A stretch of 64,000 nucleotides of DNA from contig JAAVVV010000001.1 of the NCBI GenBank assembly GCA_023910605.1, positions 2,470,698 to 2,534,697 of the forward strand. The letters run 5' to 3'. Source of the DNA: Bosea sp. (in: a-proteobacteria). Lineage in GTDB: Bacteria > Pseudomonadota > Alphaproteobacteria > Rhizobiales > Beijerinckiaceae. Every line of letters begins with the position of its first letter. The first letter of the stretch is position 1. This document shows positions 42,464 through 64,000 of the stretch, in pieces. Made by a program: the position numbers and the translations under genes. The notes under the pieces are model-generated. The model saw only the letters and a program-made list of their open reading frames with translations. It was not told the origin of the DNA and ran no database searches.

Positions 42464-42639
42464 CGTTAAACCCCTTCCGAGATCATCGCCCTGTGGCGCC
42501 GACAGACACAGCGCGTCATGCGCCTGCATCACGCGCCATCCATGAAAAACGATTACAGGACGCCATTGCACCTGCTGTCAACTTGGCTTCCAATCGCACG
42601 GTGAAGCCCGATCGTCCGGGCAGTCTCGGGAAACTGTCG

Positions 42640-47985: not shown

Positions 47986-48576
47986 TCAGCGCAAACCATC
48001 CCATTTGCTGATCGCGCCGGCTTCCAGCCCGCCCATCCGCGCATGGGGTCGCCCGCCGGTGGACATGCATAGCGCGAACAGGATCTCGTTGGGCCTGGGA
48101 CCATCGGGCACCACGCACGTCATCGCGTCGAAATGCGAGCGCACATAGGCCGCATCCTTGTGGTGGATCGGCAGGTCGATGGGCGTGCCCATGGCCGCCA
48201 CCTTCGCAGCGGACGGCACGATCGCCAGCGCCTGGCCAATCAGTTCCCGCATCGCATAGCCGCCCGGCACGTGCCACAGCGCGCCATGCTCGACCTCCCC
48301 TGCCACGCCGACGATCGAGCCCTTTCCATAGGCCTCGACCTCGGAAGGCTTGATGCCCATCGCGGCGCACAGGCGGGTGGAGCATTCGAGGCCGAGCGGC
48401 TTCAGCTCATCCATGAACCACTGCAGATCAGGCTCGTAGCGCCCTGCGAAGGGGTTGTGGATGATCGCCGCCACCCAGCCCTTGAGCGCGGGCTTCGCAC
48501 GATCCGGGCCGCCATCATGGCGGATCTCCTCCACGTAGGTCACGATCTTGCGCAGCTTCACGGTCATTTCAGGCAT
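47986..48576 (-). CDS. DUF1185 (amino acid synthesis family) protein
   Basis: A 196-residue cytoplasmic protein of the DUF1185 family, annotated loosely as amino acid synthesis; no reaction is established. Conserved parts are VTYVEEIRHDGG, AAIIHNPFAGRYEPDL, YGKGSIVGVAGEVEHGALWHVPGGYAMR and PIHHKDAAYVRSHFDA. The histidine- and glutamate-rich centre suggests a metal or phosphate site. It overlaps the end of the UPF0280 gene (stop 48564) and is the last gene of the heterocycle operon. The start could also be the ATG at 48567. Confidence 0.85.
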   Translation of the reverse strand: MPEMTVKLRKIVTYVEEIRHDGGPDRAKPALKGWVAAIIHNPFAGRYEPDLQWFMDELKPLGLECSTRLCAAMGIKPSEVEAYGKGSIVGVAGEVEHGALWHVPGGYAMRELIGQALAIVPSAAKVAAMGTPIDLPIHHKDAAYVRSHFDAMTCVVPDGPRPNEILFALCMSTGGRPHARMGGLEAGAISKWDGLR

Positions 48577-49433
48577 TCCAGTTCGGGTTGAAGACGATCG
48601 ACAAGGGTCAGGCTCTGGCCCTGGAGATGAAGCGCCGCATCCGCGATGAGCCCTCGGGCGCGATAAAGGCGGGCGCGGTGCAGCCCTGCCGACAGCGCTC
48701 GCATCACGCTGTCAGGCGGCAAGGGCGGCACTGCGACGGTGACCGGCAGCGCGCCAAGGTCGCTGTCCGGGTCGAGCAAGGTGGCGGGCCGGCGGATGAT
48801 GCCGGGGTGGTCGCAATCGACCGCATTCGCGATCAGCGTCGCAGCGACATCTGCCGTGGCGGCATCGCGCGCCAGCACCGTGACCCCGTCCGCGATGCCG
48901 AGCGAGAAGGATCGTCCACCCGCGCCTGACGTGGCGATGCCGCGCGCTGTGTCGGCGCTGCGCAGCACAAGGCCGGCGCTGGCCTGCGGCACGCCGGCGC
49001 CCGAGGCATGGCCCATGACGCCGATAGCCAGCGAATGCCCTGCCGCAAGATGCACCGCGATGTCGCCGCCATCATTGACGAAAGCCTTGTCGAGCGGCGC
49101 GGCCGCGATCATGGCGGCCAGGATTTCATCCGCCACCGCCCCGGCGACAGCAGCCATCGGCGTCACAAAGAGGCCGGCGAAGGGCTGGCAGGCCCGCTGC
49201 ATCCTGAGCGCCACCCCGCCGTGCAGCCGGGCGCCCTCGCCCATGGGCCGGCGCAGGGCAGCAAGCTCGGAGCACAGCTCGGACAGGATTGTGGCGAAGC
49301 GCGCCTGGGCGGCCTGCCGCGCCGCGGCCACGGCGCTTGCCTCGCCCCAGGCCCTCAGCACGATGTCGATGGGTCCTTGCTGCATGTGCAGCCGGTCCCC
49401 GGAAAGGTTACGGATGGCCGGGCGCTCCCGCAT
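48564..49433 (-). CDS. UPF0280 family protein
   Basis: A 289-residue protein of the UPF0280/COG2122 family, distantly similar to ApbE flavin transferases. Conserved blocks are PMAAVAGAVADEILAAM, KAFVNDGGDIAVHLAAGHSLAIGV and RGIATSGAGGRSFSLGIADGVTVLA. No enzymatic role is known; an ApbE-like fold could mean flavin attachment or FAD hydrolysis, which would fit the flavoproteins of this operon. It starts five bases after the MarR stop. Confidence 0.85.
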   Translation of the reverse strand: MRERPAIRNLSGDRLHMQQGPIDIVLRAWGEASAVAAARQAAQARFATILSELCSELAALRRPMGEGARLHGGVALRMQRACQPFAGLFVTPMAAVAGAVADEILAAMIAAAPLDKAFVNDGGDIAVHLAAGHSLAIGVMGHASGAGVPQASAGLVLRSADTARGIATSGAGGRSFSLGIADGVTVLARDAATADVAATLIANAVDCDHPGIIRRPATLLDPDSDLGALPVTVAVPPLPPDSVMRALSAGLHRARLYRARGLIADAALHLQGQSLTLVDRLQPELECLK

Positions 49434-49438
49434 GGCCT

Positions 49439-49903
49439 TCAGCCTAACCGGGCAAGCAGGGCGACAAAGCGCGCCGCCTCTGCCGCAGACAACGGCGCGA
49501 GCGTGCGGGCCGACACCTCCGCAGCGACAGCCTTCATCGCGCTGGCGGCGCTGGCCCCATCGTCTGTCAGGGCCACGATCACCAGCCTCGCATCCTCAGG
49601 CGCAGGCGTAAGCTGGACCCAGCCCCGTCGCGCCAGCCGCCCGACCACGCTGAAGATCGTGGCAGGATCCATCGCCGTCAGCCGCCCGAGCTGGTTCTGC
49701 GATTGCGGGCCGAGATCATCGAGCTTGGCCAGCGCCGCGAACTGGGTGGGCGTTACGCCGAAGGGTGCCATGACCGCATTGAACTGCTCCGTCGCGCGCT
49801 GCTGCGCCTTGCGAAGCAGGAAGCCCACCTGCTCCTCGAGCACATAGCGCGCGGGGGCGTCATCAGCGGCAGCCGGCTCCGGCAGCTTGCCCGCCCGTCT
49901 CAT
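49439..49903 (-). CDS. MarR family transcriptional regulator
   Basis: A 154-residue winged-helix regulator. The DNA-binding core is visible (VTPTQFAALAKLDDLGPQSQNQLGRL, DPATIFSVVGRLARRGWV with the wing at RLVIVALTDDG). It lies inside the operon, overlapping the reductase gene by four bases, so it is probably autoregulated and controls the whole unit. NicR, which senses 6-hydroxynicotinate in Pseudomonas putida, is also a MarR protein; this parallel is suggestive only. Confidence 0.9.
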   Translation of the reverse strand: MRRAGKLPEPAAADDAPARYVLEEQVGFLLRKAQQRATEQFNAVMAPFGVTPTQFAALAKLDDLGPQSQNQLGRLTAMDPATIFSVVGRLARRGWVQLTPAPEDARLVIVALTDDGASAASAMKAVAAEVSARTLAPLSAAEAARFVALLARLG

Positions 49904-51396
49904 CCCCGCTCCTTGGGCCAGGGATTGCCGTCCATCCAGGACTCGAACCGCGCCTCCCGCGCCAGCGCAATCAGCACGTCATCCATGGAGACGATATCTC
50001 CCATATGGCCGCCAAGCCGGGCATAAAGGCTGCGCGGCAGCGTGAATTCGATCGGCGCGACGATGGCAGGGGTCGGCACATAGCCGAACGAGCCCTTCGG
50101 CATCCGCGTCACGTCCGCCATCACCGTGATCCCGCCGCCCGCCCAGATATGCGCAGGCGCGCCGCCCAACGTCACCCGCGTCTCGCCTGCCGCGACCGAG
50201 CGCGTCAGCAGCACCGGGTTTTCGCTGACGCCGGCCCTGAGGCTACCTCCGGCTCCGGCCATGAACAGCACTGAGCACAGCGACGGCTCGCAATTCTCGC
50301 CGATGCGGTCGACGACAGCCTGCACAGCGGCCGGCATCGCGGCGGGAACGGGAACCAGTCGATCGTCGAGGATGCAATAGAGCGCATCCTCTCCCGTCGT
50401 CGAGGTGAGCAGCAGCCGCAAGCCGGGCCAGGCGGCTTCAGCGTCGATCCTGGCGATGACCGACAGCGGATCGCTGATGTCCGTCCCGCCCCATCCAAGC
50501 CCCGGGTTGGCCACCTGGAAATAGCGCCCCGGCGTGGATTTGCGGCCGCGCACCCGCACGCCCGCCCCCTTCATGCCCAGCACCTTGCCGGCCTGATGCT
50601 CGGTGAGCACGCCCGTGATGTGGTCATCCACCACAATCACCTCGTCCACATGCCCGAGCCATTGCCTGGCGAAGATTCCGATCGTGGCAGAGCCGCAGCC
50701 GACCCGCATGCGCTGCTCCGGCTTGCCATCGACGATGGGGGCCATCCCGGCCTGCACGATCACCTCGTGGCCGCCTGCGATGTTCATCGTCACCGGCTCG
50801 CCCGAGCACAGCTTCAGCAGGGCGTCGCAGGTGACATTGCCCTCACGCTTGCTGCCGCCCGTAAGGTGCCGCACGCCGCCGATCGACAGCATCTGGGAGC
50901 CGTATTCGGCCGTGGTGACATGACCCACCGGCTCGCCCTCGACCAGGATGGTCGCCGCCTCCGGCCCCAGATGCCGGTCGGTGTCGATCTTCACCTTGAC
51001 GCCGCAATAGCTGAAAATGCCCTCAGTCACGACAGTGACGGTGTCGACCCCCTCATGTTCCGAGGCGACGATGAAGGGCGCCGGCTTGTAGTCGGGATAG
51101 GTCGTTCCGGAACCCACACCGGTGATGAAGGTGCGCGAGGGATCGAGCGGCTGTCCGTTCCAGTCCGTCCCGGCGAATTCGACGAGCTTGCCGCCCCCTT
51201 CAACCGTCTGGTGGAGCAGCAGAACCGGGTCCGTGCGAACGAGTTCTCCCGCCACATTGGCATAGCGCGAGCACGCCCCGGACCGGCCGGGCCGGATGCG
51301 GCACAGCACGGGGCAGGCATCGCAACGGACGATGCCGTCGCCCTCGGAAACGCCGAGCTTCGCGGATCGCGCGGCGGTGGATAGCGCGTCGCTCAT
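49900..51396 (-). CDS. 6-hydroxynicotinate reductase-like Fe-S protein
   Basis: A 498-residue protein resembling 6-hydroxynicotinate reductase of Eubacterium barkeri, which reduces the pyridone ring to 1,4,5,6-tetrahydro-6-oxonicotinate. An N-terminal Cys cluster (Cys25, 28, 32 and 42 in CDACPVLCRIRPGRSGAC) should bind one 4Fe-4S centre; the rest is a large domain with many Gly-rich loops (ITGVGSGTTYPDYKPAPF, YCGVKVKIDTDRHLG). It overlaps the molybdenum hydroxylase gene and the MarR gene by four bases each. The call is from remembered family similarity without an alignment, so the exact substrate is open. Confidence 0.7.
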   Translation of the reverse strand: MSDALSTAARSAKLGVSEGDGIVRCDACPVLCRIRPGRSGACSRYANVAGELVRTDPVLLLHQTVEGGGKLVEFAGTDWNGQPLDPSRTFITGVGSGTTYPDYKPAPFIVASEHEGVDTVTVVTEGIFSYCGVKVKIDTDRHLGPEAATILVEGEPVGHVTTAEYGSQMLSIGGVRHLTGGSKREGNVTCDALLKLCSGEPVTMNIAGGHEVIVQAGMAPIVDGKPEQRMRVGCGSATIGIFARQWLGHVDEVIVVDDHITGVLTEHQAGKVLGMKGAGVRVRGRKSTPGRYFQVANPGLGWGGTDISDPLSVIARIDAEAAWPGLRLLLTSTTGEDALYCILDDRLVPVPAAMPAAVQAVVDRIGENCEPSLCSVLFMAGAGGSLRAGVSENPVLLTRSVAAGETRVTLGGAPAHIWAGGGITVMADVTRMPKGSFGYVPTPAIVAPIEFTLPRSLYARLGGHMGDIVSMDDVLIALAREARFESWMDGNPWPKERG

Positions 51397-54173
51397 GCCC
51401 TGCCCTCTTCCCCATGCAGGGCGGCCCACAGCCTGTGCGGCAGGACCGGCACCTGCGTCATGCGCACGCCGCAGGCATGGCGGATCGCGCCGAGTATCGC
51501 AGGCGCCGTGGCCACGAGCGCAGGTTCGCCCACGCCTTTGGCGCCGTAAGGCCCGGTGAGTTCGGGATCTTCGATCAGGTAGGTCCTGATCGGAGGCATG
51601 TCCCCCGCTGTCGGGATCAGGTAATCATGCAGGTTCTCGGTGCGGCCTGGTATGAACTCCTCCATCAGCGCGAGCCCCAGTCCCTGTGCGATGCCGCCAT
51701 GGATCTGGCCCTCGACGAGGACCGGGTTGATGGCGCGGCCGACATCATGGGCCGCGATGATGTTGAGCACCTTCACGGTGCCCAGCGCTGTGTCCACCTC
51801 CACCTCGGCGATCTGCGCCGCGAAGCCATAGGTGCCGTAAGGCATGCCCTGCCCGTCCGCATCAAGGCCTGTGGTCGGCGGATCCCAGCTGCCTGTGCCT
51901 TCCAGCACGGTTCCATCCTCGCCGGCAGGCAGGCTTGGCAGATCGAGGGTCCGAACGACCTCGCCATCGTGCACCGACAAGGTGGCGCCCGAGAGCGCGA
52001 GCCGTGCGTCGGGGCCGGCATTGGCGAGCTTGAGGATGCGCGCCCGCAAGGCCTCGCCGGCCAGGCGCGCGGCATTGCCCGACACATAGGTCTGGCGCGA
52101 GGCCGATGTCTTGCCGGCATCGGCGGTGAGGTCGGTGTCGCCGACCACGAGGCTGAAGGCCTCGACGGCAAGGCCCGCCGCATCGGCCGCGATCTGCGTC
52201 AGAATCGTGCTTGAACCTTGGCCGATATCGACGGCGCCGTTGAAGAAGGTCAGCGTTCCGTCGCGTCGAAGCGCAAGCCGCATCGTCGAGGGGTTCGACA
52301 ACGAGGTGTTGCCGCAGCCATACCACATGCAGGCGATGCCAGCGCCACGCCGCTGCCGCCGCGGCGATGATTCATTATGCGAGGCGCAGCGCGCAAGCGC
52401 CTGATCCCAATCCTCTTTCAGCACATCAAGACACTGCGGCAGGCCGGCCGAGCTTGCGAGCACATGGCCCGAATAGGTCGTGTCGCCGGTCGCCAGCGCA
52501 TTGGCGCGGCGGATCGCCCAGCGGTCCATGCCGAGCTGGTCGGCGAGATCATCCATCAGGCTTTCGTTGGCGATGGCGGCCTGCGGCACGCCGAAGCCCC
52601 GAAAGGCGCCTGCCGGCGTCTCGTTGGTGTAGACCGCCCGCGTGCGGTTCCAGACATTCGGCACGCGGTAAGGCCCGGCCCCGTGCACGGGCACGCGGTT
52701 GGCCACTGTGGGACCCCAGGAGGCATAGGCGCCGGTGTTGAAGTCGCCCTCCAGCTCATAGGCCGTGAGCCGCCCCGCCGCATCGGCGGAAGCTTTTGCC
52801 TTGATCCGGGCCGGGTGGCGCTTGGTCGAGGACGCCATGCTCTCGATGCGGCTGTAGATGATCCGCACGGGCCGCTTAAGCCTCCAGGCCGCGACCGCAA
52901 GCAAGGGCTGCACGGATACGTCGAGCTTGCCGCCAAAGCCGCCGCCGCAGGCGCTGGGCCTTATGCGAACCGCGTCCTGCGCGATGCCGAGCACCCGGGC
53001 CACCTCGTCACGATCCATGTAAGGCGCCTGGGTGCAGGCGGTGATTTCGATCCGGTCGCCGATGCGCTCCGCGAAACCGGCCTCAGGCTCGATATAGGCA
53101 TGCTCGACGAATGCCGTCGTGAAATCGCCCTCGGCCGTCGCGGCGGCTTCGGCATGTCCCCTGCCGACATCACCGTAGCGCAGAAGGCCGCGGGCCAGCA
53201 CATTGTCAGGCGCGAAAGCGTGCAAGACCGGCGCGTCGTGGCTGAGCCCCTGCTCCGCGCCCTTTACTGCCGGCTCCACGCTCCACTGGATCGGCAGGGC
53301 GCTGTCGGCGAGGCCTTCGACCGCAGCCCGCGAGCCGACCAGCGCCAGCACCGCCTCGCCGCGATAGCGGACATGGCCTGGCGCCAGAACCGGTTGATCC
53401 TTAAGATGAGGGAATATCCCGAAGCTGTTTTCGCCGGGCACATCGGCATGGCTGAGAATGGCCTCAAGACCGGGCATCAAGGCCTTCACGGCTTCCAGTT
53501 CGCCCAGGATGAAGCGGGCACGCGCATGGGGCGAGCGCACCACCCGCATCCACAGCGCATCGGCCGGAGCGGCATCGGCCCCGAACAGCTCGGCGCCCGC
53601 CACCTTCGCCCAGCCGTCGAGGCGGGGAATGGACTGACCGACCGCAGGGATGGGGGCCTCGCTCTGCGCCGCCTGTTCCGCGCGATTGGCAGAGCTCCCG
53701 GTCGCCGTCGCCAGAACGGCCTCGATGATCTTCACATAGCCCGTGCAGCGGCAGAGCACGCCGCCTATCGCATCCTCGACCGCGCGCGCATCCGGCGCCG
53801 GGTTGCGCGCCAGCAGCGCGGCGGCCGCCATCAGCATGCCCGGCGTGCAGATGCCGCACTGGGCCGCGCCATGGGCAAGGAAGGCTGCCCTCAGCCTGTC
53901 CGTGATCCCTCCCGGGCCCGCCCCCTCCACCGTATCGATCACGCAGCCCTCGGCCTGCGCTGTCGACACCAGGCAGGCGCAGACAGGGTCTCCATCGAGC
54001 AGCACGGTGCAGGCCCCGCAATCGCCTGCCTCGCAGCCGATCTTGGTGCCGGTCAGGCCAAGCCCCTCGCGCAGCGTGTCGGAAAGCGGCCGGAACGGGT
54101 CGGCGGCAACGCGGTGGCTCTCCCCATTCACGATGAGAAGGGTGGAGGCCATGTCCTGAAGCGCCGGGCTCAT
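51393..54173 (-). CDS. Xanthine dehydrogenase-family Mo hydroxylase, fused 2Fe-2S and Mo domains
   Basis: A 926-residue protein. Residues about 8-165 form the ferredoxin and 2Fe-2S part (GCEAGDCGACTVLLDGDPVC, then CGICTPGML and CRCTGY); the rest is the molybdopterin-binding domain (GGGFGGKLDVS, AFRGFGVPQAAIANE, ADAGKTSASRQTYVSG, and GPYGAKGVGEPAL with the catalytic Glu). It should hydroxylate an N-heterocycle with water as oxygen source. The FAD domain is absent here and supplied by the upstream gene. ATGA overlaps join it to both neighbours. The frame is open to 54395 but similarity starts at 54173 or 54152. Confidence 0.88.
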   Translation of the reverse strand: MSPALQDMASTLLIVNGESHRVAADPFRPLSDTLREGLGLTGTKIGCEAGDCGACTVLLDGDPVCACLVSTAQAEGCVIDTVEGAGPGGITDRLRAAFLAHGAAQCGICTPGMLMAAAALLARNPAPDARAVEDAIGGVLCRCTGYVKIIEAVLATATGSSANRAEQAAQSEAPIPAVGQSIPRLDGWAKVAGAELFGADAAPADALWMRVVRSPHARARFILGELEAVKALMPGLEAILSHADVPGENSFGIFPHLKDQPVLAPGHVRYRGEAVLALVGSRAAVEGLADSALPIQWSVEPAVKGAEQGLSHDAPVLHAFAPDNVLARGLLRYGDVGRGHAEAAATAEGDFTTAFVEHAYIEPEAGFAERIGDRIEITACTQAPYMDRDEVARVLGIAQDAVRIRPSACGGGFGGKLDVSVQPLLAVAAWRLKRPVRIIYSRIESMASSTKRHPARIKAKASADAAGRLTAYELEGDFNTGAYASWGPTVANRVPVHGAGPYRVPNVWNRTRAVYTNETPAGAFRGFGVPQAAIANESLMDDLADQLGMDRWAIRRANALATGDTTYSGHVLASSAGLPQCLDVLKEDWDQALARCASHNESSPRRQRRGAGIACMWYGCGNTSLSNPSTMRLALRRDGTLTFFNGAVDIGQGSSTILTQIAADAAGLAVEAFSLVVGDTDLTADAGKTSASRQTYVSGNAARLAGEALRARILKLANAGPDARLALSGATLSVHDGEVVRTLDLPSLPAGEDGTVLEGTGSWDPPTTGLDADGQGMPYGTYGFAAQIAEVEVDTALGTVKVLNIIAAHDVGRAINPVLVEGQIHGGIAQGLGLALMEEFIPGRTENLHDYLIPTAGDMPPIRTYLIEDPELTGPYGAKGVGEPALVATAPAILGAIRHACGVRMTQVPVLPHRLWAALHGEEGRA

Positions 54174-55045
54174 GCGCACCCCCTTCCCGTAACCGAAGTC
54201 TGCGCAAGTCCGGCGAGGCAATCTCGGGTCAACATCTGAGCCGCCGCGCGGCGATGGGCCGCCGAACTGCGCACATCGTCGATTGGCGCAAGCGCCTTGA
54301 AGTGGCTGGCTTCCACGACCTCGGGAGCAGCGGCAAGCGGCTGGCCGGCCAGCGCGGCCTCCAGCCCCGTCAGCCGCTTCGCAACAGCCGAGCACGCGCC
54401 CACCGCCACGCGCGCCGCCACGATCCGCCCCGCCTCATCCACGGCAAGGCTCGCCGCCACCATGGCGATGGAGATCACGAGATAGCGCCGCGCGCCGAGC
54501 TTCACGAAATGGCTGCGTGCGGATGCTCCGAACGGCGGGATCAGCACAGCCGTGACGATCTCGTCGGCGGCCAGCGCCGTGCGCCGGTAATCGAGATTGA
54601 AGTCCGCGAGCGGCAGGACGCGCCGCCCCCTCAGGCTCGCCAACTCCACCGAGGCATCGAGCGCCATCAGGCAGGCGATGCCGTCGCCGGCCGGCGAGGC
54701 GGTGCACAGATTGCCCGCAAGGGTCCCTCTTGCCTGGATCTGCACGCCGCCCACCTCACGCGCCGCGGCTTTCAGCCCGTCAAACAAAGGCGGCAATCCC
54801 GCGCCGATCACATCGCTCCAGCGGGTCAGCGCACCGATCCGCCAGCCTGCATCGCTGGCCGCGATGCCCCGCAGGCCAGGCAGGGCCGAGATGTCGAGCA
54901 CATCCCTGTGGACCGGATCGCCCCACGCGGCGCGCGTCACCTTGGCGGGATAGACGTCCGTGCCGCCGGCCAGCACAGTGACGTCATGCGCCGCGCGAAC
55001 CGCCAGCGCCTCGTCCAGCGTCGAGGGGCGGTGATAACCGATCAT
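54170..55045 (-). CDS. FAD-binding subunit of the molybdenum hydroxylase
   Basis: A 291-residue protein of the CoxM/XdhB family that carries electrons from the Mo/Fe-S subunit to an acceptor. The FAD motifs VLAGGTDVYP (residues about 24-33) and RGTLAGNLCTASPAGDG (about 106-122) are clear. Four-base ATGA overlaps with HyuB-like and Mo-hydroxylase genes indicate a single coupled transcript. Confidence 0.9.
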   Translation of the reverse strand: MIGYHRPSTLDEALAVRAAHDVTVLAGGTDVYPAKVTRAAWGDPVHRDVLDISALPGLRGIAASDAGWRIGALTRWSDVIGAGLPPLFDGLKAAAREVGGVQIQARGTLAGNLCTASPAGDGIACLMALDASVELASLRGRRVLPLADFNLDYRRTALAADEIVTAVLIPPFGASARSHFVKLGARRYLVISIAMVAASLAVDEAGRIVAARVAVGACSAVAKRLTGLEAALAGQPLAAAPEVVEASHFKALAPIDDVRSSAAHRRAAAQMLTRDCLAGLAQTSVTGRGCA

Positions 55046-56745
55046 GACGCCTCCCTCCAGCCGAACAGCCGCGCCGCCTCATCGGCGGTGTAGTAGCCCC
55101 GCGCCACATCGCGGGCGATCAGCGCGGGCGCCCTTTCGCAAGGCGGGCCATAGCCGCCGCCGCCTGGCGTCATCACCTCGACCCGGTCGCCGGCGCTCAG
55201 CGGTATGTCCTGGTCCTTCGACAGATGCTCGGGCGTATAGACGACGCCGCCACGATGGATGCGCACCACGTTCGGCGCGCCATCCGCGCCGCCCTGCACG
55301 CCCGGCGGGCCGAAGCGGCCATGGTCCATCACGAAGGAGGCCCTCGCCTGTCCGCGCAGCAACTCGACCTCGTAATGGACGCCGAAGCCGCCGCGATGCC
55401 GGCCAGCCCCGCCAGACCCCTCGCGCAGCGCGAACCGGCGGAACAGGATGGGGTAATACTGCTCCATCACCTCCACAGGCGCGGTCTTGGAGATGCCGAT
55501 GGTCGAGCAGCCATTGCTGAGCCCATCATGCTCGACATTGCCGCCATAGCCGCCGCCCGAGATCTGATACATCACATAGGCCGCGCCCTTGGCCGGATCG
55601 AAGCCGCCGAGCGCGAAATTGCCCGAGGACCCCGCAGGGGCCGCCGTGACCTTGTCCGGTATGGCCTGGGCCAGCGCAAGGAACACGGCCTCCGCAATGC
55701 GCTGCGAGACCTCCGCGGCGCAGCCCGAAACCGGGCGCGGATAGCGCGCATCGAGGAAGGTGCCCTCCGGCCTGAGGACATTGAGCGGCTCGAACGCGCC
55801 CGCATTGAGGGGCGTGTCAGGGAAGATATGCCGCACCGCCAGATAGACGGCTGACAAGGTGGTTGCGATCACCGAGTTCATCGGCCCCCGGCAAGGCGGG
55901 GACGATCCCGTGAAATCAAATCCGAGTTCAGAGCCTTGCACGGTGATTTTCAATGCGATTTTGAGCGGCTCGTTGACGACGCCGTCCGAGTCGACGAAGG
56001 CCTCCGAGGCATAGACCCCATCAGGTATGGTCGCGATGTGGGCGCGCATCAGATCGGCAGCCCTGACGCGGATATCGCCGATCGCGGCCTTCACGGTCGA
56101 CGCGCCATGACGCTCGATCAGTTCGCGCAGCCGCTGCGCCCCGACCTTCAGCGCCGAGGCCTGGGCCTTGATGTCGCCGATGCGCTGGTCGGCCACGCGG
56201 ATGTTGCTGCAAATGATCGAATGGATCTCACGGTCCATGACGCCGCGCTTGAAGAGCTTCACGGGCGGAAGCCGCAGCCCTTCCTGTTCGACCTCCGTCG
56301 CCTTGGCCGAAAACCCGCCCGGCACCATCCCGCCGATATCCGGCCAGTGGCCGGTGTTTTGCAGCCAGCAGAACAGCGCGCCGTCAACGAAGAACGGCAT
56401 GGCGAAGCGGACATCCATGAGATGGGTGCCGCCCAGATAAGGGTCGTTGACGATGTAGATGTCGTCAGCGTCCGGACCGGCCACCGCGCCCTCGCCGATC
56501 AGCCGAGTGAGCTCGGCGGTCGAATACTGCATGGTGCCGACGAAGACCGGCAGGCCGAACTCGCCCTGCGCGATCAAGGCGCCATCGGTGCTGGCATAGA
56601 TCCCCGATGAGCGATCATCGGCCTCGGCGATCACCGGCGAGAAGGCGGCGCGCGTGAAGGCGATGTCCATCTCGTTGCAGACCTGGGTCAGGCCGGCCTG
56701 AATCACCGCCACCGTGAGCGGGTCGAGCATGGGATGCGTCGTCAT
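55042..56745 (-). CDS. Hydantoinase B/oxoprolinase family protein
   Basis: A 567-residue HyuB-type subunit of ATP-dependent lactam hydrolases (N-methylhydantoinase, 5-oxoprolinase, acetophenone carboxylase). MDIAFTRAAFSPVIAEADDRS, DIYIVNDPYLGGTHLMDV and GGGGYGPPCERAP-type end (TPGGGGYGPP) are typical. It works with the HyuA-like ATPase encoded just upstream, overlapping it by four bases. Confidence 0.92.
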   Translation of the reverse strand: MTTHPMLDPLTVAVIQAGLTQVCNEMDIAFTRAAFSPVIAEADDRSSGIYASTDGALIAQGEFGLPVFVGTMQYSTAELTRLIGEGAVAGPDADDIYIVNDPYLGGTHLMDVRFAMPFFVDGALFCWLQNTGHWPDIGGMVPGGFSAKATEVEQEGLRLPPVKLFKRGVMDREIHSIICSNIRVADQRIGDIKAQASALKVGAQRLRELIERHGASTVKAAIGDIRVRAADLMRAHIATIPDGVYASEAFVDSDGVVNEPLKIALKITVQGSELGFDFTGSSPPCRGPMNSVIATTLSAVYLAVRHIFPDTPLNAGAFEPLNVLRPEGTFLDARYPRPVSGCAAEVSQRIAEAVFLALAQAIPDKVTAAPAGSSGNFALGGFDPAKGAAYVMYQISGGGYGGNVEHDGLSNGCSTIGISKTAPVEVMEQYYPILFRRFALREGSGGAGRHRGGFGVHYEVELLRGQARASFVMDHGRFGPPGVQGGADGAPNVVRIHRGGVVYTPEHLSKDQDIPLSAGDRVEVMTPGGGGYGPPCERAPALIARDVARGYYTADEAARLFGWREAS

Positions 56746-58811
56746 GAGGGCGCTCCGGGCGTGATCCTGAGATTGCCGATCGCGTCGACGCGCGCCGTCC
56801 AGCCCGGCTCCACCACGGTCGTCGCATCAAGCTGCTGGATCACGGCTGGCCCCGGCACCACGGCATCGATCGGCAGCCATTCGCGCTGGTAGATCCTCGC
56901 CGCGCGCCACTCCCCATCGGCATGGAGCGGGCGCGAGCTGACCACGGCCTCAGCCGTGCTGGCCTTCCGGCCTGCGGCATCTATCAGGCTGCCCAGCGGC
57001 AGGCGCCGGCGCTTGCCCACAACCGACGTCACGAGGTTGACCAGCACCGCCCTGATCTCCGGCAAGGACACCTGGAAGCGCTGGAAATAGGCAGCCTCGA
57101 ACAGGGCCTGCAATTGCTCGCGGCTTACATCCATCGAGGGAAGCGCCACGCGGATGAGATGGGTCTGCCCGCGGAACTGCATGTCGGCCCCGTGGAGCAC
57201 GATCGTCTCGACGATCTCGTCCTGCTCCGCGGCATTGATCTTGAGGCCCTGCTCGACCTGCTCGGCCAGCACGCGCGCCACAAGGCCCATGTCCGCCCCG
57301 TCGAGCGGCACGTTGATCGTCTGCACGAAGTCCTGCCTGAGATCCGCCACGAGGCAGCCCAGCGCATTGGTGAGCCCCGGACGCGCCGGAACCAGCACTT
57401 CGGCCAGCCCCAGCTCCCGCGCCAGCGCCACGGCATGAAGCGGGCCGGCGCCGCCAAAGGCAAAGAGAGCGAAATCGCGCGGATCATGCCCACGCGAAAG
57501 CGAGACCATCCGGATCGCGCCTGCCATGTGGGTATTGCCCAGCGTCAGCACCGCAGCCGCCGCAGCCTCGACGCTGAGCCCGAGCGGCCGGGCAAGCTGC
57601 TCATCGACCAGAGCGCGCACATGCTCGACCGTGACGGGATTGCGCACGGCAAGGAGCTTGCCGGGATCGAGCCGGCCCAGCACGAGGTTCGCATCCGTGA
57701 TCGTCACCGCGCGCCCGCCCCGGCCATAGCAGATCGGGCCTGGCTCCGAGCCGGCCGAATGCGGCCCCACGGTCAGCATTCCGGCGGCGTTGAGCGAGGC
57801 GATGGAACCGCCGCCCGCGCCCACGGTGCGCACATCGACCATGGGCACATGGATTGGCAGGCCGTAGGCGATGGTCAGTTCAGCCGACACCTCCGGCACG
57901 CCGCCATGAATCAGCGCGACGTCGGTGGAGGTGCCGCCCATGTCATAGGTGATCGCGTTGGCGAGGCTGCTCTGCTCCAGCGTCGCAGCAGCCGCCATCA
58001 CGCCCGATGCCGGCCCGCTCATCACGGTCTTGGCGGCCTCGCGCGCCACCAGCCGGGCGGAGACCGTGCCGCCATTGCCGTTCATGACAAGCAGGTCGCG
58101 CCGGAAGCCGCGGCCCTCCAGCTCGCCCTGCAAACGCCGGACATAGCGGTCGAGGATAGGCTGCACGGCGGCGTTCACGCTCGCCGTCGTGCCCCGCTCG
58201 TACTCGCGGTATTCCGAGAGCAGCGCATGGCCGAGCGTGACATAGCCATTGGGCCAGACCTCGCGCGCGATCGCGCCGGCGCGCATCTCATGGGCGGGGT
58301 TGGCGTAGGCGTGCAGGAAGTGGATCACCAGCGCCTCGCAGCCCTCCGCAACCAGCCGCCCGGCCGCTTCGCGCACGGCTCGTTCGTCGAGCGCCGTCAC
58401 GATCTGCCCGCGCGCATCCATGCGCTCGGGCACCTCGATGCGCAGCTCACGCGGAATCAGCGGCTCGAACGTGCCGAAAAGGCCATAGGGCCTGGGCCGG
58501 GTGCGTCGCCCAAGCTCCAGCGTGTCGCGAAAGCCCATGGTGGTGATGAGGCCGACGCGCGCCAGCTTGCGCTCCAGCACCGCATTGGTGGTCGCTGTCG
58601 TGCCATGGATGATGAGGTCGAGATCGGCCGGCGAAACCCCGGCCGCCTCGATGGCGGCGATCACGCCATGCGCCTGATTCTCGGTCGTCGTCGGAATCTT
58701 GGCCAGCCGGATCGCGCCTGCCGGCTCCTGCCCGGCCAATCCCGCCGCCGCTTCATAGAGCAGCAGATCGGTGAACGTGCCCCCCACATCGATTCCTGCA
58801 ACGCGGCGCAA
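56742..58811 (-). CDS. Hydantoinase A/oxoprolinase family protein
   Basis: A 689-residue HyuA-type ATPase subunit. The N-terminal phosphate-binding GIDVGGTFTDLLL, IIHGTTATTNAVLERK, YDMGGTSTDVALIHGG, GAGGGSIASLN and FAFGGAGPLHAVALARELG blocks are all present. The start is set at the TTG at 58811, which has GGGGGG eight bases upstream and places the VGGTF motif at the normal distance; an ATG at 58841 lacks a ribosome site. Together with HyuB it should open a lactam or cyclic imide with ATP. Confidence 0.92.
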   Translation of the reverse strand: MRRVAGIDVGGTFTDLLLYEAAAGLAGQEPAGAIRLAKIPTTTENQAHGVIAAIEAAGVSPADLDLIIHGTTATTNAVLERKLARVGLITTMGFRDTLELGRRTRPRPYGLFGTFEPLIPRELRIEVPERMDARGQIVTALDERAVREAAGRLVAEGCEALVIHFLHAYANPAHEMRAGAIAREVWPNGYVTLGHALLSEYREYERGTTASVNAAVQPILDRYVRRLQGELEGRGFRRDLLVMNGNGGTVSARLVAREAAKTVMSGPASGVMAAAATLEQSSLANAITYDMGGTSTDVALIHGGVPEVSAELTIAYGLPIHVPMVDVRTVGAGGGSIASLNAAGMLTVGPHSAGSEPGPICYGRGGRAVTITDANLVLGRLDPGKLLAVRNPVTVEHVRALVDEQLARPLGLSVEAAAAAVLTLGNTHMAGAIRMVSLSRGHDPRDFALFAFGGAGPLHAVALARELGLAEVLVPARPGLTNALGCLVADLRQDFVQTINVPLDGADMGLVARVLAEQVEQGLKINAAEQDEIVETIVLHGADMQFRGQTHLIRVALPSMDVSREQLQALFEAAYFQRFQVSLPEIRAVLVNLVTSVVGKRRRLPLGSLIDAAGRKASTAEAVVSSRPLHADGEWRAARIYQREWLPIDAVVPGPAVIQQLDATTVVEPGWTARVDAIGNLRITPGAPS

Positions 58812-58888
58812 TCGGCAGACCCCCCAAGCTTGCACGATCATTTGTGCACGAATGAGTTTGCCGGGCAAGTGCCCGTCAGGGCTCGCCC

Positions 58889-59602
58889 TCACACCGTCAG
58901 ATAGGCTTCTCGCACCGCGTCATTGGCCTCCAGCTCGGCCATCGTGCCCTCATAGCGGATCGCGCCCTTCTCGATGACAAAGGCGCGGTCGGAGACGGCG
59001 GCGGCGAAATGCAGGTTCTGCTCGCACAGCAGCACGGCGATGCCCGTGGCCTTCATGGCGATGACGGCCTCCGCCATCTGCTCGACGATGACGGGCGCGA
59101 GGCCCTCGGAGGGCTCGTCCAGCAGCACCATGTCCGGGTTGCCCATCAGCGTGCGCGCGATGGTGAGCATCTGCTGCTCGCCGCCCGACATGGCCGAGGC
59201 GCGGCGTCCCTCCATCTCGGCGAGGTTGGGGAAGATCGCGTAGAGCCGTTCCAGCGTCCAGGCCGGGCGGCCCTCGCGTGCGGGCCGGCGTCCGACTTCG
59301 AGGTTCTCCTGCACGGTGAGGTCCGTGAAGATGCGGCGCTCTTCGGGCACATAGCCCAGCCCCAGCCGCGCGATCCGGAAGCTCGGCAGTCGCCTGATGT
59401 CCTGGCCGGCAAACTGCACCCGATCGGCGCGGGCCTCGATCAGCCCCATGATCGCCTTGAGGGTCGTCGTCTTGCCTGCGCCATTGCGGCCCATCAACGC
59501 CGCGACCTCGCCGCGCCTGACCTCCAGCGTCACGTCGAACAGCACCGAGGCCTGGCCATAGGCGGCCGTGAGGCGCTGCACGGAGAGAAGCGGCTCGCTC
59601 AT
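58889..59602 (-). CDS. Branched-chain-type ABC transporter ATPase LivF-like
   Basis: A 237-residue ATPase with Walker A MGRNGAGKT, signature MSGGEQQM and Walker B MVLLDEPSEGLAP, the LivF pattern. It overlaps the LivG-like gene by four bases and ends 77 bases before the HyuA-like gene. In this context the importer probably brings in the heterocycle rather than leucine. Confidence 0.9.
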   Translation of the reverse strand: MSEPLLSVQRLTAAYGQASVLFDVTLEVRRGEVAALMGRNGAGKTTTLKAIMGLIEARADRVQFAGQDIRRLPSFRIARLGLGYVPEERRIFTDLTVQENLEVGRRPAREGRPAWTLERLYAIFPNLAEMEGRRASAMSGGEQQMLTIARTLMGNPDMVLLDEPSEGLAPVIVEQMAEAVIAMKATGIAVLLCEQNLHFAAAVSDRAFVIEKGAIRYEGTMAELEANDAVREAYLTV

Positions 59603-60378
59603 GCCCGCCCCCGGCGCGCGCGCATGGCCGCCTCAACGCCCATATCGCCGAGATAGACCTGCTTCACCCGCGCATTCGCCCTCACCTCGTCGGGCTTGCC
59701 TTCGGCGATGATCTCGCCGCGCACAAGGACGAGAATACGATCGGCATGGGCGAAGACGGCGTCCATGTCGTGTTCGGTGAAGAGCACGCCGATCCCGCGC
59801 GCCCTGGCGATGCCGGCGGTCAGTTCCATGAGCTGCGCCCGCTCGCGCGGGGCCATGCCGGCGGTGGGCTCATCCATCAGCAGCAATCGTGGCTTGGATG
59901 CGAGCGCGATGGCCAGCTCCACGCGCTTGACGTCGCCATAGGCGAGCTCGCGCACCGGCCTGTCCGCATCCTCGCGCATGCCGACAAGGGCGAGCAGGTC
60001 CAGCGCCTCGTCCCGGTGCAGCGTCGCCGCAGGCGCGCCGAACGACATCAGCTGCCCGTGCCATGAGATCAGAGCCATCTGCACGTTCTCGGCCACGCTC
60101 ATCGACACGAAGGTCTGCGCGATCTGGAAGGTGCGCCCGATGCCGCGCCGCCAGACCTCCCGCGGCTGAAGCCCGGAAATCGGCTGCCCGTCGAACAGCA
60201 CCTGGCCTGAATCAGGCCTCAGCTGGCCGCCCACCATGTTGAAGGTGGTGGACTTGCCCGCCCCGTTCGGCCCGATGATGGCGAGCATGTCGCCCGCCTC
60301 GAGCGAAAAACGAACGTCGCGTGCGGCCACCACGCCGCCAAACCGCTTGTTGAGGCCTTCGACTCTCAGCAGGCTCAT
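59599..60378 (-). CDS. Branched-chain-type ABC transporter ATPase LivG-like
   Basis: A 259-residue ATPase with Walker A IGPNGAGKST, the LivG-type GIGRTFQIAQTF block, signature LAYGDVKRVE (a LivG variant) and Walker B LLLMDEPTAGMAP. The frame extends to 60957 over the permease gene, but the ATG at 60378, overlapping the permease stop, is the family start. Confidence 0.9.
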   Translation of the reverse strand: MSLLRVEGLNKRFGGVVAARDVRFSLEAGDMLAIIGPNGAGKSTTFNMVGGQLRPDSGQVLFDGQPISGLQPREVWRRGIGRTFQIAQTFVSMSVAENVQMALISWHGQLMSFGAPAATLHRDEALDLLALVGMREDADRPVRELAYGDVKRVELAIALASKPRLLLMDEPTAGMAPRERAQLMELTAGIARARGIGVLFTEHDMDAVFAHADRILVLVRGEIIAEGKPDEVRANARVKQVYLGDMGVEAAMRARRGRA

Positions 60379-62285
60379 GGCCGTGCGCCTGCCTCGGCCG
60401 GAGGCGGACTTGCAGCACGGGCCCTGGCGTCGGTGAGCAGCGCGCTTGCGCCGGCAATGCCCCGCGGGAAGGCCAGCACCATGGTGATGATGGACAGCCC
60501 GAGGAACAGCCGCCAGAAATCCGTAAGCGGCATGAAGAAATCCTTGATCGAGTGGAAGGCCGCCGCGCCCACGATCGGGCCAATCACTGTCTGGATGCCG
60601 CCGAGCAGAACCATCACGAGAAAGTCCACCGACATCGGAATCGAGATCATGGTCGGGTCTATCGAGCCCTTGGAGAAGGAATACAGGCCGCCCGCCAGGC
60701 CCGCCGCCGCACCCGAGAGGGTGAAGGCGAACCAGCGGATGCGGCGCACATCGATGCCGATGGCGTCGGCCCGCACGGCGCTGTCGCGCGCGGCCCTCAG
60801 CGCATAGCCGAAAGGCGCGTAGATGGAATGGCGCAGCGCGATGATCGCGCTGAGGGTGAAGGCCAGCACGAGATAAAAATAGACCTGCCGGTTCGAGGCC
60901 CAGGCCGAGGGCCAGACGCCGACCACGCCATTGTCCCCGCCCGTGACCTCGACCCACTGGAAGCAGACCGCATAGACGATCTGCGCGAAGGCCAGCGTCA
61001 ACATGGCGAGATAGATGCCAGACAGGCGCACGATGAAATAGCCGAACAAGGCTGCAAAGGCGCCGGCGATCAGGGGCGCCAGCAGGATAGCCGGCTCCAT
61101 GGACAGCCCGCCCTTGGTGACGAGCAGCCCCGCCGCGTAGGCGCCCAGCCCGAAATAGGCCGCGTGGCCGAACGACACGATGCCGCCCACACCGATCAGG
61201 AAATGCAGTGAGAACGCCGCAAGCGCCAGCACAAGCACCTCGATGCCGACCTTGACCATATAGTTGTCCCCGACGACCGGCAGCGCCAGCAGCAAACAGA
61301 TCGCCACCGCCGCCACGATCCTGTCGACCCGGCCGAAACGCTTCAGCGAGAGGATGCCTTCGGGCAGGATGGCGCGGCCCGCAGCCGCATCGGGGCGGCC
61401 GAACAGGCCCCAGGGCTTCACGACAAGCACCACCGCCATCAGCAGGAACACCAGCACGAGCGTGATCTTGGGAAAGATCAGGATGCCGAAGGCCTGCAAC
61501 TGCCCGATGATCAGCGCGGCGACGAAGGCGCCGGGGATCGAACCCATCCCGCCGATCACCGTCACCACGAAAACCTCGGTGATGATGGAGATGTCCATCT
61601 GCGTGTTGACCGCCACGCGCGGTATCTGCAGCGCGCCGCCAAGCCCGGCGAGGAAGGCCCCCAGGAACAGCGTGCCGGTGAACAGCCAGGCCTGGTTGAC
61701 GCCCAAGGCGCCGACCATCTCGCGGTCCTGCGTGGCGGCGCGGATCAGCACGCCGAAGCGCGTCTTCTGCATCAGGAGCCAGAGGCCAAGCAGCACGACA
61801 AGCCCCGCCCCGATCAGGAACAGTTCATAGGCCGGGAAGCGCTGGTCCATGATGTAGACGCCGTGCCGAAGCGAAGGAGCGCGGGGGCCGGGGATCTCGA
61901 CCGCGCCCCAGAGCTTGATCACGAGATCCTGCACGATCAGCACGACGCCGAAAGTGGCAAGCAACTGAAAGAGTTCCGGCACCTTGTAGATTCGGCGCAG
62001 GAGCACGATCTCCATCGCCGCGCCGATCACGCCGACAATGAGCGCGGACACAAGCACGCCGAGCAGGAACATGGGCAGCGAGCGGTCGACCTCAAGCAGC
62101 ATCGGCACAATGGTGACGGCCAGATACGCACCCAGCATATAGAGCGAGCCATGCGCGAAGTTCACGATCCGCGTCACGCCGAACACGATCGTCAAGCCGG
62201 AGGCGATGATGAACAGCGACGCCGCGCTGGCAAGCCCGGACAGCGACTGGATGACGATGAAGGAAAGATCCATGGCGGTCGTCAT
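60375..62285 (-). CDS. Fused LivH-LivM ABC permease
   Basis: A 636-residue inner-membrane protein combining both permease subunits. The LivH half (about 1-300) has FGVTRIVNFAHGSLYMLGAY and IGGMGSIPGAFVAALIIG; the LivM half (about 315-620) has GGIVSFGHAAYFGLGAYAAG and LLGGIQTVIGPIVGAAAF. These genes are separate in E. coli liv, so the fusion fixes a 1:1 ratio. The start codon lies at the edge of a palindromic repeat (62285-62356). Confidence 0.9.
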   Translation of the reverse strand: MTTAMDLSFIVIQSLSGLASAASLFIIASGLTIVFGVTRIVNFAHGSLYMLGAYLAVTIVPMLLEVDRSLPMFLLGVLVSALIVGVIGAAMEIVLLRRIYKVPELFQLLATFGVVLIVQDLVIKLWGAVEIPGPRAPSLRHGVYIMDQRFPAYELFLIGAGLVVLLGLWLLMQKTRFGVLIRAATQDREMVGALGVNQAWLFTGTLFLGAFLAGLGGALQIPRVAVNTQMDISIITEVFVVTVIGGMGSIPGAFVAALIIGQLQAFGILIFPKITLVLVFLLMAVVLVVKPWGLFGRPDAAAGRAILPEGILSLKRFGRVDRIVAAVAICLLLALPVVGDNYMVKVGIEVLVLALAAFSLHFLIGVGGIVSFGHAAYFGLGAYAAGLLVTKGGLSMEPAILLAPLIAGAFAALFGYFIVRLSGIYLAMLTLAFAQIVYAVCFQWVEVTGGDNGVVGVWPSAWASNRQVYFYLVLAFTLSAIIALRHSIYAPFGYALRAARDSAVRADAIGIDVRRIRWFAFTLSGAAAGLAGGLYSFSKGSIDPTMISIPMSVDFLVMVLLGGIQTVIGPIVGAAAFHSIKDFFMPLTDFWRLFLGLSIITMVLAFPRGIAGASALLTDARARAASPPPAEAGARP

Positions 62286-62356
62286 TCTCGGGCGGAGCGA
62301 AGCGGAGACCCGAGAACCCCAGCCCCGGACGGGATGGCCGGGTCAGGCCCGGCCAT
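62285..62356. repeat. Palindromic REP-like element before the LivHM gene
   Basis: Two adjacent hairpins: TTCTCGGG/CCCGAGAA (62285-62292 with 62309-62316, inner CGGAGCGAAGCGG pairing) and ATGGCCGGG/CCCGGCCAT (62334-62342 with 62348-62356). The first includes the last bases of the permease start codon. Sequences of this type are dispersed in many Hyphomicrobiales genomes. Confidence 0.55.
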
Positions 62357-62370
62357 GACGGTGAATGCCC

Positions 62371-63594
62371 TCACGCCTTACGCGCCGCCCTGACCTCGGC
62401 CTCGCTGAACATGTATTTCGCCCCATCCTCGAAGCGCCAGTTCTTCATGGCGCCGGCCTTGCCCTTCAGCGTGGTCTCCCCGACCCAGGCGCCCATGGTT
62501 GCCTGCTTGTCGATGCCGCGCATGGTGACAGACCCGGAGATCGTCTCGAACTTCATGTCGTCAAAGGTCTTGAGCAGCGCTTCGGTCTCGAGCGAGCCTG
62601 CCTTGGCGATCAGATCGCGGCTCATATAGGCGAAGACGTAGCCAAGGAACGAGCCAAGCCGCGGCGTGTCGTTGAAGCGGGAACGATAGGCGTTGACGAA
62701 GGCCGCATGCGCCGGATCGGTGATCTGCTCCCAGGGGTAGCCGGTCACGATCCAGCCCTCCGGCGTCTCCTCGCCCAACGGGATCATGTATTCCGGCTCG
62801 CCGGTCAGCAGGCTCACCACAGTGCGCCGCTCGAACAGGCCGCGCGTGTTGCCCTCACGCACGAACTGGGTCAGGTCCGCGCCGAAGGTCACGTTGAAGA
62901 TGCCGTCGGGCCGCGACTGGGCGAGCGCGCCCACGGTCGCGCCGGCATCGATGCGCCCCAGAGCCGGGAACTGCTCGGCCACCACCTCGAAGCCAGGCGT
63001 CGCCTCGGCCATCAGCTTCCTGAAGTTGGCGGCCGCCGACTGGCCATACTCGTAGTTGGGCGCGACGATGGCCCAGCGCTTGATGCCGCGGGCCTTCACC
63101 GCCTCCACCAGCATCCTGGTCTGCATGTAGGTGGAGGGCCGTAGGCGGTAAGTGTAGCGATTGCCCTGCGCCATGGTGAGCGCGTCGGTCAGCGGCTCGG
63201 TGGCCATGAACATGATCTTGCGCTGATTGGCGAAGTCGGACACCGCAAGCCCTACATTGGACAGGAAGGTGCCGGCGATGAACGAGACATTCTCGCGCGT
63301 CACCAGTTCCTCGGCCACACGCACCGCATCGCCCGGCGTCGAGCCGTCATCGCGGAACACGAACTCAAGCGGCCGGCCAAGCGCCCCGCCCTTGGCGTTG
63401 ATCTCGTCCTGCGCCATCTGGATGGCGTTGCGGTAGGGCAGCGCGAAGGCGGCCATGCGGCTGTAGGAATTGATTTCTCCGATCCGGATCGGCGCGCCCG
63501 AAGCCGGCGTCTGCGCCCTCGCCCCGAATGGCGCGGCCAGCGCCGCCGCAGCCATGCCGCCCACCACCGTGCGGCGCGTCGTCTTGATCGTCAT
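62371..63594 (-). CDS. Branched-chain-type ABC substrate-binding protein
   Basis: A 407-residue periplasmic type I binding protein with a Tat-like signal (TTRRTVVGGMAAAALAAPFG, cleavage after ARA near residue 27). INSYSRMAAFALPYRNAIQMAQDEINAKGGALGRPLEF and FIAGTFLSNVGLAVSDFA are typical LivK-family segments. It is the first gene of the twelve-gene unit, so its ligand probably equals the substrate of the downstream enzymes. The ATG at 63594 has GGAG eight bases upstream; the open frame to 63831 is not family-like. Confidence 0.88.
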   Translation of the reverse strand: MTIKTTRRTVVGGMAAAALAAPFGARAQTPASGAPIRIGEINSYSRMAAFALPYRNAIQMAQDEINAKGGALGRPLEFVFRDDGSTPGDAVRVAEELVTRENVSFIAGTFLSNVGLAVSDFANQRKIMFMATEPLTDALTMAQGNRYTYRLRPSTYMQTRMLVEAVKARGIKRWAIVAPNYEYGQSAAANFRKLMAEATPGFEVVAEQFPALGRIDAGATVGALAQSRPDGIFNVTFGADLTQFVREGNTRGLFERRTVVSLLTGEPEYMIPLGEETPEGWIVTGYPWEQITDPAHAAFVNAYRSRFNDTPRLGSFLGYVFAYMSRDLIAKAGSLETEALLKTFDDMKFETISGSVTMRGIDKQATMGAWVGETTLKGKAGAMKNWRFEDGAKYMFSEAEVRAARKA

Positions 63595-63827: not shown

Positions 63828-64000
63828 TCACTTCTCGACGAAGGCCTTCTCGATCACGTAATGGCCGGCGCTCGACGAGGAACCTTCGGCAAAGCCGCGC
63901 TGCTTCATCATCACGACCATGTCCTTGAGCATGGCCTCGGAGCCGCAGATCATCACGCGGTCCACGGCCGGATCCAGGAGGCCCAGTCCGGCCTTTGCCG
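63828..64000 (-). CDS. fpr: Ferredoxin-NADP reductase, 3' part only
   Basis: The last 57 codons of the gene are in the window; the rest lies beyond base 64000. DRVMICGSEAMLKDM is the NADP-binding C-terminal motif of bacterial (subclass I) ferredoxin/flavodoxin-NADP reductases, and the tail GSSSSAGHYVIEKAFVEK matches the family end. The enzyme moves electrons between NADPH and ferredoxin. It could supply reduced carriers to the Fe-S reductase of the neighbouring operon, but this is speculation. Confidence 0.85.
   Translation of the reverse strand, partial: AKAGLGLLDPAVDRVMICGSEAMLKDMVVMMKQRGFAEGSSSSAGHYVIEKAFVEK

Follow-up and report, generated by a model that had tools for sequence, protein, structure and literature searches.

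A Bosea operon for probable reductive nicotinate catabolism with HyuAB as the likely ring opener

Organization of the operon

The stretch analysed here, referred to as the window, comprises 64,000 nucleotides of the Bosea sp. contig JAAVVV010000001.1 (positions 2,470,698 to 2,534,697) and carries at 47986-63594 a set of twelve genes, all on the minus strand. Their family content and the comparison with other genomes make it quite probable that they form a reductive nicotinate catabolic operon whose ring opener is HyuAB, a predicted adenosine triphosphate (ATP)-dependent lactamase. Twelve same-strand genes had been described in the initial annotation and are recovered here in the same order. 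Families were called with Pfam and NCBIfam, except for Hnr, the 6-hydroxynicotinate reductase homologue, which is named after its homologues.

In the direction of transcription, the first gene (62371-63594) encodes a binding protein of the Peripla_BP_6 family, the proposed nicotinate receptor of a Liv-type ATP-binding cassette (ABC) importer. It is separated by 85 base pairs (bp) from the gene of a fused LivH-LivM permease (60375-62285), which is followed by those of the LivG-type (59599-60378) and LivF-type (58889-59602) ATPases. Next come HyuA (56742-58811), the ATP-binding subunit of the putative lactamase, at a distance of 47-80 bp set by the choice of an uncertain start codon (TTG 58811 or ATG 58841), and HyuB (55042-56745), its metal-binding hydrolytic subunit. 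The flavin adenine dinucleotide (FAD) subunit of a molybdenum (Mo) hydroxylase (54170-55045) and its fused [2Fe-2S]-molybdopterin subunit (51393-54173), proposed to be a nicotinate 6-hydroxylase, precede Hnr (49900-51396) and a MarR-family regulator (49439-49903). The operon ends with UPF0280 (DUF375; 48564-49433), located 5 bp after MarR and proposed as a flavin attachment factor for Hnr, and with AA_synth (DUF1185, PF06684; 47986-48576), whose gene overlaps that of UPF0280 by 13 bases.

The seven ATGA overlaps claimed earlier (LivHM/LivG, LivG/LivF, HyuA/HyuB, HyuB/FAD, FAD/Mo, Mo/Hnr and Hnr/MarR) are all present, the downstream gene beginning with ATGA and sharing 4 bases with the preceding gene. 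The guanine-plus-cytosine content of the operon is close to that of the remainder of the window, and a promoter and terminator scan gave sites no more numerous than in shuffled sequence. The reading given to these genes in the initial annotation is supported; no role had been assigned to UPF0280 and AA_synth, and a gene for electron supply, described below, had been missed.

Hnr and the Mo hydroxylase as the core of the pathway

Hnr has no Pfam or NCBIfam match at E<=0.001 and no PDB sequence match even at E<=10. It is 60-79% identical to 26 plasmid loci, 17 of which are annotated as 6-hydroxynicotinate reductase, and its assignment passes through these plasmid homologues. Eight cysteines (C25, C28, C32, C42, C131, C190, C234 and C369) are invariant in 60 Hnr sequences. 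The reductase of Eubacterium barkeri reportedly carries a covalent flavin and three iron-sulphur clusters, for which eight cysteines would be too few by cysteine alone. In the Mo hydroxylase, the FAD, [2Fe-2S] and Mo domains are all detected.

The predicted model of Hnr (predicted local distance difference test score, pLDDT, 78.9) finds no Foldseek match at E<=0.001, and its best VIA Z is 4.2, to a glycine-cleavage T-protein; T-proteins occupy the top VIA rows. A new fold is not established by this result, which says only that no known fold was detected. Residues from about 131 to 218 bear a weak and consistent likeness to the C-terminal barrel of the glycine-cleavage T-protein, and Pfam GCV_T_C matches 59 of the 60 Hnr proteins at E<=1 (best E 1.4e-4). 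The residues SAT 236-238, considered as a flavin site for their supposed likeness to ApbE targets, were set aside: T238 is replaced by A in 12 of 60 sequences and several other S/T residues are invariant, so no site is assigned.

The surroundings of Hnr were compared in three partly overlapping samples: the best 80 of 447 confirmed Hnr loci on genome contigs, a class sample of 385 alphaproteobacterial genomes and a sample of 101 relatives, the last two both including the window's genome (G000) and G095. Among loci with enough sequence, UPF0280 lies within 800 bp after Hnr in 70 of 75 genome-contig loci and in all 62 class loci, while the Mo subunit lies within 600 bp before Hnr in 68/78 and 55/65, respectively. 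A search for the same gene order elsewhere had been suggested at the outset, and both adjacencies, Hnr-UPF0280 and Mo-Hnr, do recur across loci, so that the arrangement is not a matter of chance.

Two plasmids illustrate how this core is combined with different partners. In Neorhizobium, nicA, nicB, fpr, an importer, MarR, hnr, UPF0280, hyuA and hyuB are grouped, together with two additional small proteins whose length matches AA_synth; nicA and nicB are nicotinate dehydrogenase genes by the depositors' annotation, and NicB has 1185 amino acids. A Sulfitobacter plasmid combines Hnr, UPF0280 and two AA_synth with FAD and Mo subunits, ferredoxin-NADP reductase and a gene of the amidohydrolase family. 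That a single Hnr-UPF0280 core is found with two kinds of hydroxylase and two kinds of ring opener speaks for a pathway whose middle part leads from nicotinate to 1,4,5,6-tetrahydro-6-oxonicotinate (THON).

HyuAB and enamidase as probable replacements for one another

The amidohydrolase that is exchanged with HyuAB has a single PDB match at E<=1e-10, the enamidase of E. barkeri (2VUN, E 1.9e-99). Among the best 80 of the 447 Hnr loci, 30 have HyuA or HyuB nearby, 19 the amidohydrolase, none both and 31 neither, many of these lying at contig ends. Whole genomes were compared with orthologue cut-offs of at least 64% identity for HyuB and at least 52% for enamidase; these were chosen after gaps had become visible in the identities of the class sample, with no HyuB between 60 and 64% and no enamidase between 41 and 52%.

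With these cut-offs, Hnr is present in 68 of the 385 class genomes. HyuB belonging to the clade of the window is found in 38 of the 68, enamidase in 29, both in none and neither in one, a genome 68% complete (Fisher p 2e-18 for complementarity, phylogeny being ignored). Enamidase is found in one and HyuB in four of the 317 class genomes without Hnr. The relatives behave likewise: Hnr occurs in 43 of 101, with enamidase in 33, HyuB in 9, both in none and neither in one (a 770-contig assembly), and among the 58 relatives without Hnr, enamidase is found in G032 and HyuB in G016. G182 is an example of enamidase without Hnr. The window's genome, which has HyuB, contains no enamidase at E<=1e-30. 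G011, with which it has a genus code in common, carries an enamidase 100% identical to the one at the Bosea sp. Leaf344 locus L033, in keeping with a Bosea-like source. The earlier proposal that HyuAB stands in place of enamidase is strongly supported by these counts, since 67 of the 68 Hnr genomes of the class sample have one opener and none has two.

HyuB is retained although distant from Hnr on the same contig in G166, G458 and G479, which makes simple hitch-hiking within the operon unlikely. On a tree of Hnr, the HyuB or enamidase label requires 8 changes, at least 5 of them forced by well-supported branches. This tree was built by a quick method with support from the Shimodaira-Hasegawa-like approximate likelihood ratio test (SH-aLRT) only, and covers 101 of the 109 Hnr genomes of both samples; six relatives are left off, as are G331 (partial) and G128 (two pieces) through a length filter.

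Several other stretches contain one of these ring openers, or a relative of it, in a different setting. In family f154, three loci (L187, L188 and L200) hold HyuAB of the window's clade with a 299-residue protein, in all three a 426-429-residue protein, and no Hnr; a Mo-hydroxylase-like protein, 27-28% identical to the window's Mo subunit, is called beside HyuAB in two of the three. These loci possibly represent another heterocycle pathway with a lactam. Enamidase-like proteins (about 40-43%) accompany AA_synth at L118 (G080:C24) and L119 (G064:C2), with no Hnr in the stretch, and L119 additionally has Mo-hydroxylase subunits close by. The window's genome itself encodes, at 1542-11026 of L102 (G000:C1:2748000-2766000), a second, diverged Liv transporter with HyuB (42%) and HyuA (44%), and no Hnr. 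The HyuB of G098 (55%), located outside the Hnr contig of that genome, was not counted as an orthologue.

HyuAB as a putative lactamase

The Hydantoinase_A and Hydantoinase_B subunits are confirmed by PF01968, PF05378 and PF02538, all over cut-off. HyuB aligns over its length with the caprolactamase subunit CapB (6YRA), the metal ligands of which are Asp41, His99, Asp102 and His124 (PMC8453981); the corresponding residues of HyuB are D44, H108, D111 and H133, and this D-H-D-H tetrad is kept throughout the 52 orthologous sequences, a set in which some genomes appear under two names. HyuA carries the ATP motifs DVGGTFTD, DMGGT and GSEPGP named for the family (PMC8453981). Opening of a six-membered lactam with ATP has been described for a relative, OplAB, which acts on delta-valerolactam (PMC11033972). 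On sequence, HyuAB is a member of the lactamase family and not a caprolactamase. Adjacent to D44, residue R45 is unchanged across the 52 orthologues and is A in the one paralogue compared; it could bind the substrate carboxylate.

The proposed pathway and its alternatives

In the pathway envisaged here, the Liv-type importer would take up nicotinate, and the FAD- and [2Fe-2S]-Mo enzyme, judging by its family and context, would yield 6-hydroxynicotinate. Hnr would reduce the latter to THON with reduced ferredoxin supplied by the adjacent ferredoxin-NADP reductase, and the flavin of Hnr would be attached by UPF0280, as suggested by exact co-occurrence and the ApbE fold. HyuA would then activate the lactam with ATP and the metal site of HyuB would hydrolyse it to an enamine, which would decay to 2-formylglutarate and ammonia, a task performed by enamidase elsewhere. 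AA_synth would act on a later step common to both versions, and MarR would regulate the operon. The wider proposal, that two interchangeable reductive nicotinate routes exist (one through enamidase, one through HyuAB acting on THON) and that Hnr is matured by a private ApbE-like UPF0280, is favoured with less assurance than the reading of the operon itself.

A number of observations weigh against the assignment of HyuAB to this step or against the roles of its partners. In the class searches, scoring covered the top 3 to 6 first-look candidates of each genome, and in those of the relatives 13 to 18, so 'absent' means not among these; of the two subunits, HyuB was the one searched for genome-wide. 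The Fisher value is to be weighed alongside independent pairs on the tree, in which a mean of 4.4 out of 5 goes in the expected direction and none in the opposite one (p 0.06-0.25), the pairs being too few. With loose cut-offs, enamidase-like proteins appear in HyuB genomes, at 39% identity in G204 and G389 of the class sample and at 41-43% in the relatives G064 and G080. The four class genomes with HyuB of the clade and no Hnr all belong to f154, and with the relative G016 they make it probable that relatives of HyuAB act on other lactams; the substrates of HyuAB itself may be wider than THON. The NCBIfam caprolactamase scores are 486 bits for HyuA (CapA) and 306 bits, HyuA and HyuB both falling below the cut-off of 1000 each. 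The PDB matches of the Mo subunit to aldehyde oxidoreductase and 4-hydroxybenzoyl-CoA reductase score higher than that to nicotinate dehydrogenase 3HRD, and sequence does not fix the specificity of the enzyme.

A first alternative is that the same logic serves another N-heterocycle, the Mo enzyme, the Hnr homologue and HyuAB degrading a different hydroxypyridine or a pyrimidine, with Hnr named after a distant relative. The unreadable specificity of the Mo enzyme, the indirect naming of Hnr and the stretches with HyuAB and without Hnr all speak for it, yet it is considered improbable. In 29 of the 68 class genomes Hnr co-occurs with an enamidase of the E. barkeri type, an enzyme whose substrate in that organism is the product of Hnr (PMC9304392). 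Nicotinate is taken as the substrate because the annotated NicAB adjoins Hnr and HyuAB on the Neorhizobium plasmid, because Bradyrhizobiaceae SG-6C, a strain with a homologous cluster, can use nicotinate and 6-hydroxynicotinate for growth (PMC3511419), and because a nicotinate phosphoribosyltransferase gene lies upstream of the window's operon, on the minus strand past the window at 64682-65974 in window numbering (NF003704, 494.7 bits for a cut-off of 379).

AA_synth and the later steps

AA_synth is present alongside both ring openers and, being common to the HyuAB and enamidase versions, would belong to a shared step. Where the loci could be tested, 40 of 69 and 29 of 50 have it no more than 3 kilobases downstream of Hnr, so that it is less tightly tied to Hnr than UPF0280. 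These associations suggest that some members of the AA_synth family, at least, take part in nicotinate catabolism. The DUF1185 fold has been described as chorismate-mutase-like, with no known activity, and Liv-type neighbours have been read as a sign of branched-chain amino-acid metabolism (PMC2954203). Judging by the AA_synth-Liv neighbourhood of the window, the Liv-type neighbours SPO0822-SPO0826 of DUF1185 in that work may be a nicotinate importer.

A second alternative is that HyuAB is an accessory enzyme of hydantoin, oxoproline or carboxylase chemistry that happens to share the operon, the ring being opened by another hydrolase not yet recognised, AA_synth for example. The lack of a known activity for AA_synth would leave room for such a role, as would the varied substrates of the hydantoinase/oxoprolinase family (PMC8453981). 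AA_synth also accompanies enamidase, however, and is therefore not its substitute; at the cut-offs used, genomes with enamidase lack HyuB, and HyuB is still kept where it lies far from Hnr. This second alternative is very unlikely, and HyuAB is retained as the probable ring opener.

UPF0280 as a putative flavin transferase

The UPF0280 family call (NF003322) scores 348 bits for a cut-off of 290. In the class sample UPF0280 and Hnr occupy identical sets of genomes, all 68 with Hnr and none of the 317 without. The predicted model of UPF0280 (pLDDT 92.7) has matches at E<=0.001 only with 2O34, of its own family, and with the ApbE/FmnB/Ftp flavin transferases. ApbE 1VRM superposes with a Z of 16.7 and a root mean square deviation of 3.2 over 218 aligned residues, the next family reaching a Z of 7.7. 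A profile alignment with eight canonical ApbE pairs the GGD, ATSG and ADxxAT motifs (E 6.7e-5 for this single comparison, probability 64). In the D-x3-T motif, which provides Mg ligands in ApbE, ADVAATL of UPF0280 pairs with ADAWATA of ApbE; D195 is invariant in 60 of 60 sequences, as is the T/S of the motif. Pfam ApbE matches 30 of 60 UPF0280 homologues at E<=1 (best 1.3e-6), and the UPF0280 of G026, in which the match was placed by coordinates, barely passes it with 26 bits. A PDB search by sequence profile alone gave 2O34 and no ApbE. Exact co-occurrence and fold together indicate that UPF0280 is probably the enzyme that attaches flavin to Hnr; no published role for UPF0280 was found in the open-licence PMC literature.

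UPF0280 might instead be a structural partner, a chaperone or an FAD-binding subunit of Hnr, a possibility that is regarded as rather doubtful. In its favour, the window's UPF0280, taken alone, misses the Pfam ApbE gathering score (11.9 bits for a threshold of 25.6). The alignment of all three motifs with canonical ApbE, the invariance of D195 and the position of ApbE as by far the best fold match outside the family argue for the transferase. So does the absence of canonical ApbE from the window's genome and from 28 of the 43 Hnr genomes among the relatives, the weak match of G026 being counted as none.

Electron supply and neighbouring genes

A ferredoxin-NADP reductase gene lies upstream of the operon on the same strand and ends 233 bp before the binding-protein gene. 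Its 3' part, at 63828-64000, is cut by the end of the window, the whole gene spanning 63828-64601; the call (NF008178) scores 136 bits, below the cut-off of 390. The window's genome encodes a 66%-identical ferredoxin elsewhere. Near Hnr, among the best 80 of the 447 loci, ferredoxin-NADP reductase-like proteins are found in 4, KorA-like proteins in 4 and ferredoxins in 6, and such recurring neighbours fit a ferredoxin-dependent Hnr. In G080, genes resembling KorAB 2-oxoacid:ferredoxin oxidoreductase, a label that is our own reading of the sequences, lie inside the Hnr operon at 1384-7883 of L109 (G080:C18) and give a hint of the electron donor.

The span 47986-63594 had been presented as a complete pathway. 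It does not appear to be one, given that the ferredoxin-NADP reductase and nicotinate phosphoribosyltransferase genes lie beyond it and that the steps identified reach as far as ring opening. Downstream, an MlrC-like protein (42367-44109, plus strand, score below cut-off), an amidase (45140-46624, NF004815 over cut-off) and a glutathione-dependent oxidoreductase-like protein (46630-47325) have no clear tie to the operon.

Taken together, these proposals would assign a definite role to a widespread group of HyuAB proteins within the hydantoinase/oxoprolinase family, and point to a non-orthologous replacement in a catabolic pathway that has an energetic cost (ATP for one opener, none for the other). 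UPF0280 would gain a testable function as a flavin transferase with one client, DUF1185 would be placed in a pathway, and the way in which electrons reach an aerobic 6-hydroxynicotinate reductase becomes testable.

Comparison with known systems

The nicotinate fermentation cluster of E. barkeri, reportedly described by Alhapel in 2006 in a work that PMC3511419 and PMC9304392 cite, is said to comprise a Mo nicotinate dehydrogenase and a 6-hydroxynicotinate reductase, with THON as intermediate. The window's operon resembles it in its Mo hydroxylase, its Hnr homologue and the proposed THON intermediate. Unlike E. barkeri, in which enamidase opens the ring, the operon has HyuAB, no enamidase having been found in the genome, and it includes a Liv-type importer.

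A conserved nicotinate degradation cluster was published in 2012 for Azorhizobium, Bradyrhizobium, Rhodopseudomonas and strain SG-6C (PMC3511419). BLAST with E. barkeri genes had located the genes for its first three steps, and the cluster contains an Hnr 42% identical to that of E. barkeri, an ABC transporter and two conserved proteins of unknown function, presumably UPF0280 and AA_synth. The window's operon shares with this cluster a putative hydroxylase, Hnr, the transporter and, presumably, the two conserved proteins, whereas its third step would be taken by HyuAB. The words 'hydantoin' and 'enamidase' are absent from the main text of PMC3511419, and no HyuAB step in nicotinate breakdown was found in the open-licence PMC literature. 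The initial annotation knew of no described pathway with this set of genes. That view fails for the core cluster, already in print, and stands for the HyuAB version, which that text does not contain. Knowledge of the pathway and of most of the cluster thus predates this analysis; in the literature searched, it is the HyuAB variant and the role of UPF0280 that were not found.

At the level of individual proteins, UPF0280 shares the fold of the ApbE/FmnB/Ftp FAD:protein flavin mononucleotide transferases (Z 14.5-16.7) and their GGD, ATSG and D-x3-T motifs, and differs in forming a family of its own that stays under the Pfam ApbE cut-off and seems to serve one client, Hnr. HyuAB has in common with CapAB, OplAB and N-methylhydantoinase the Pfam Hydantoinase_A/B families, the ATP motifs and the D-H-D-H tetrad (PMC8453981, PMC11033972). 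It differs in falling below the CapAB equivalog cut-offs, in the R45 beside its metal ligand, which is A in the one paralogue compared, and in its proposed substrate, which would be an acidic, unsaturated six-membered lactam.

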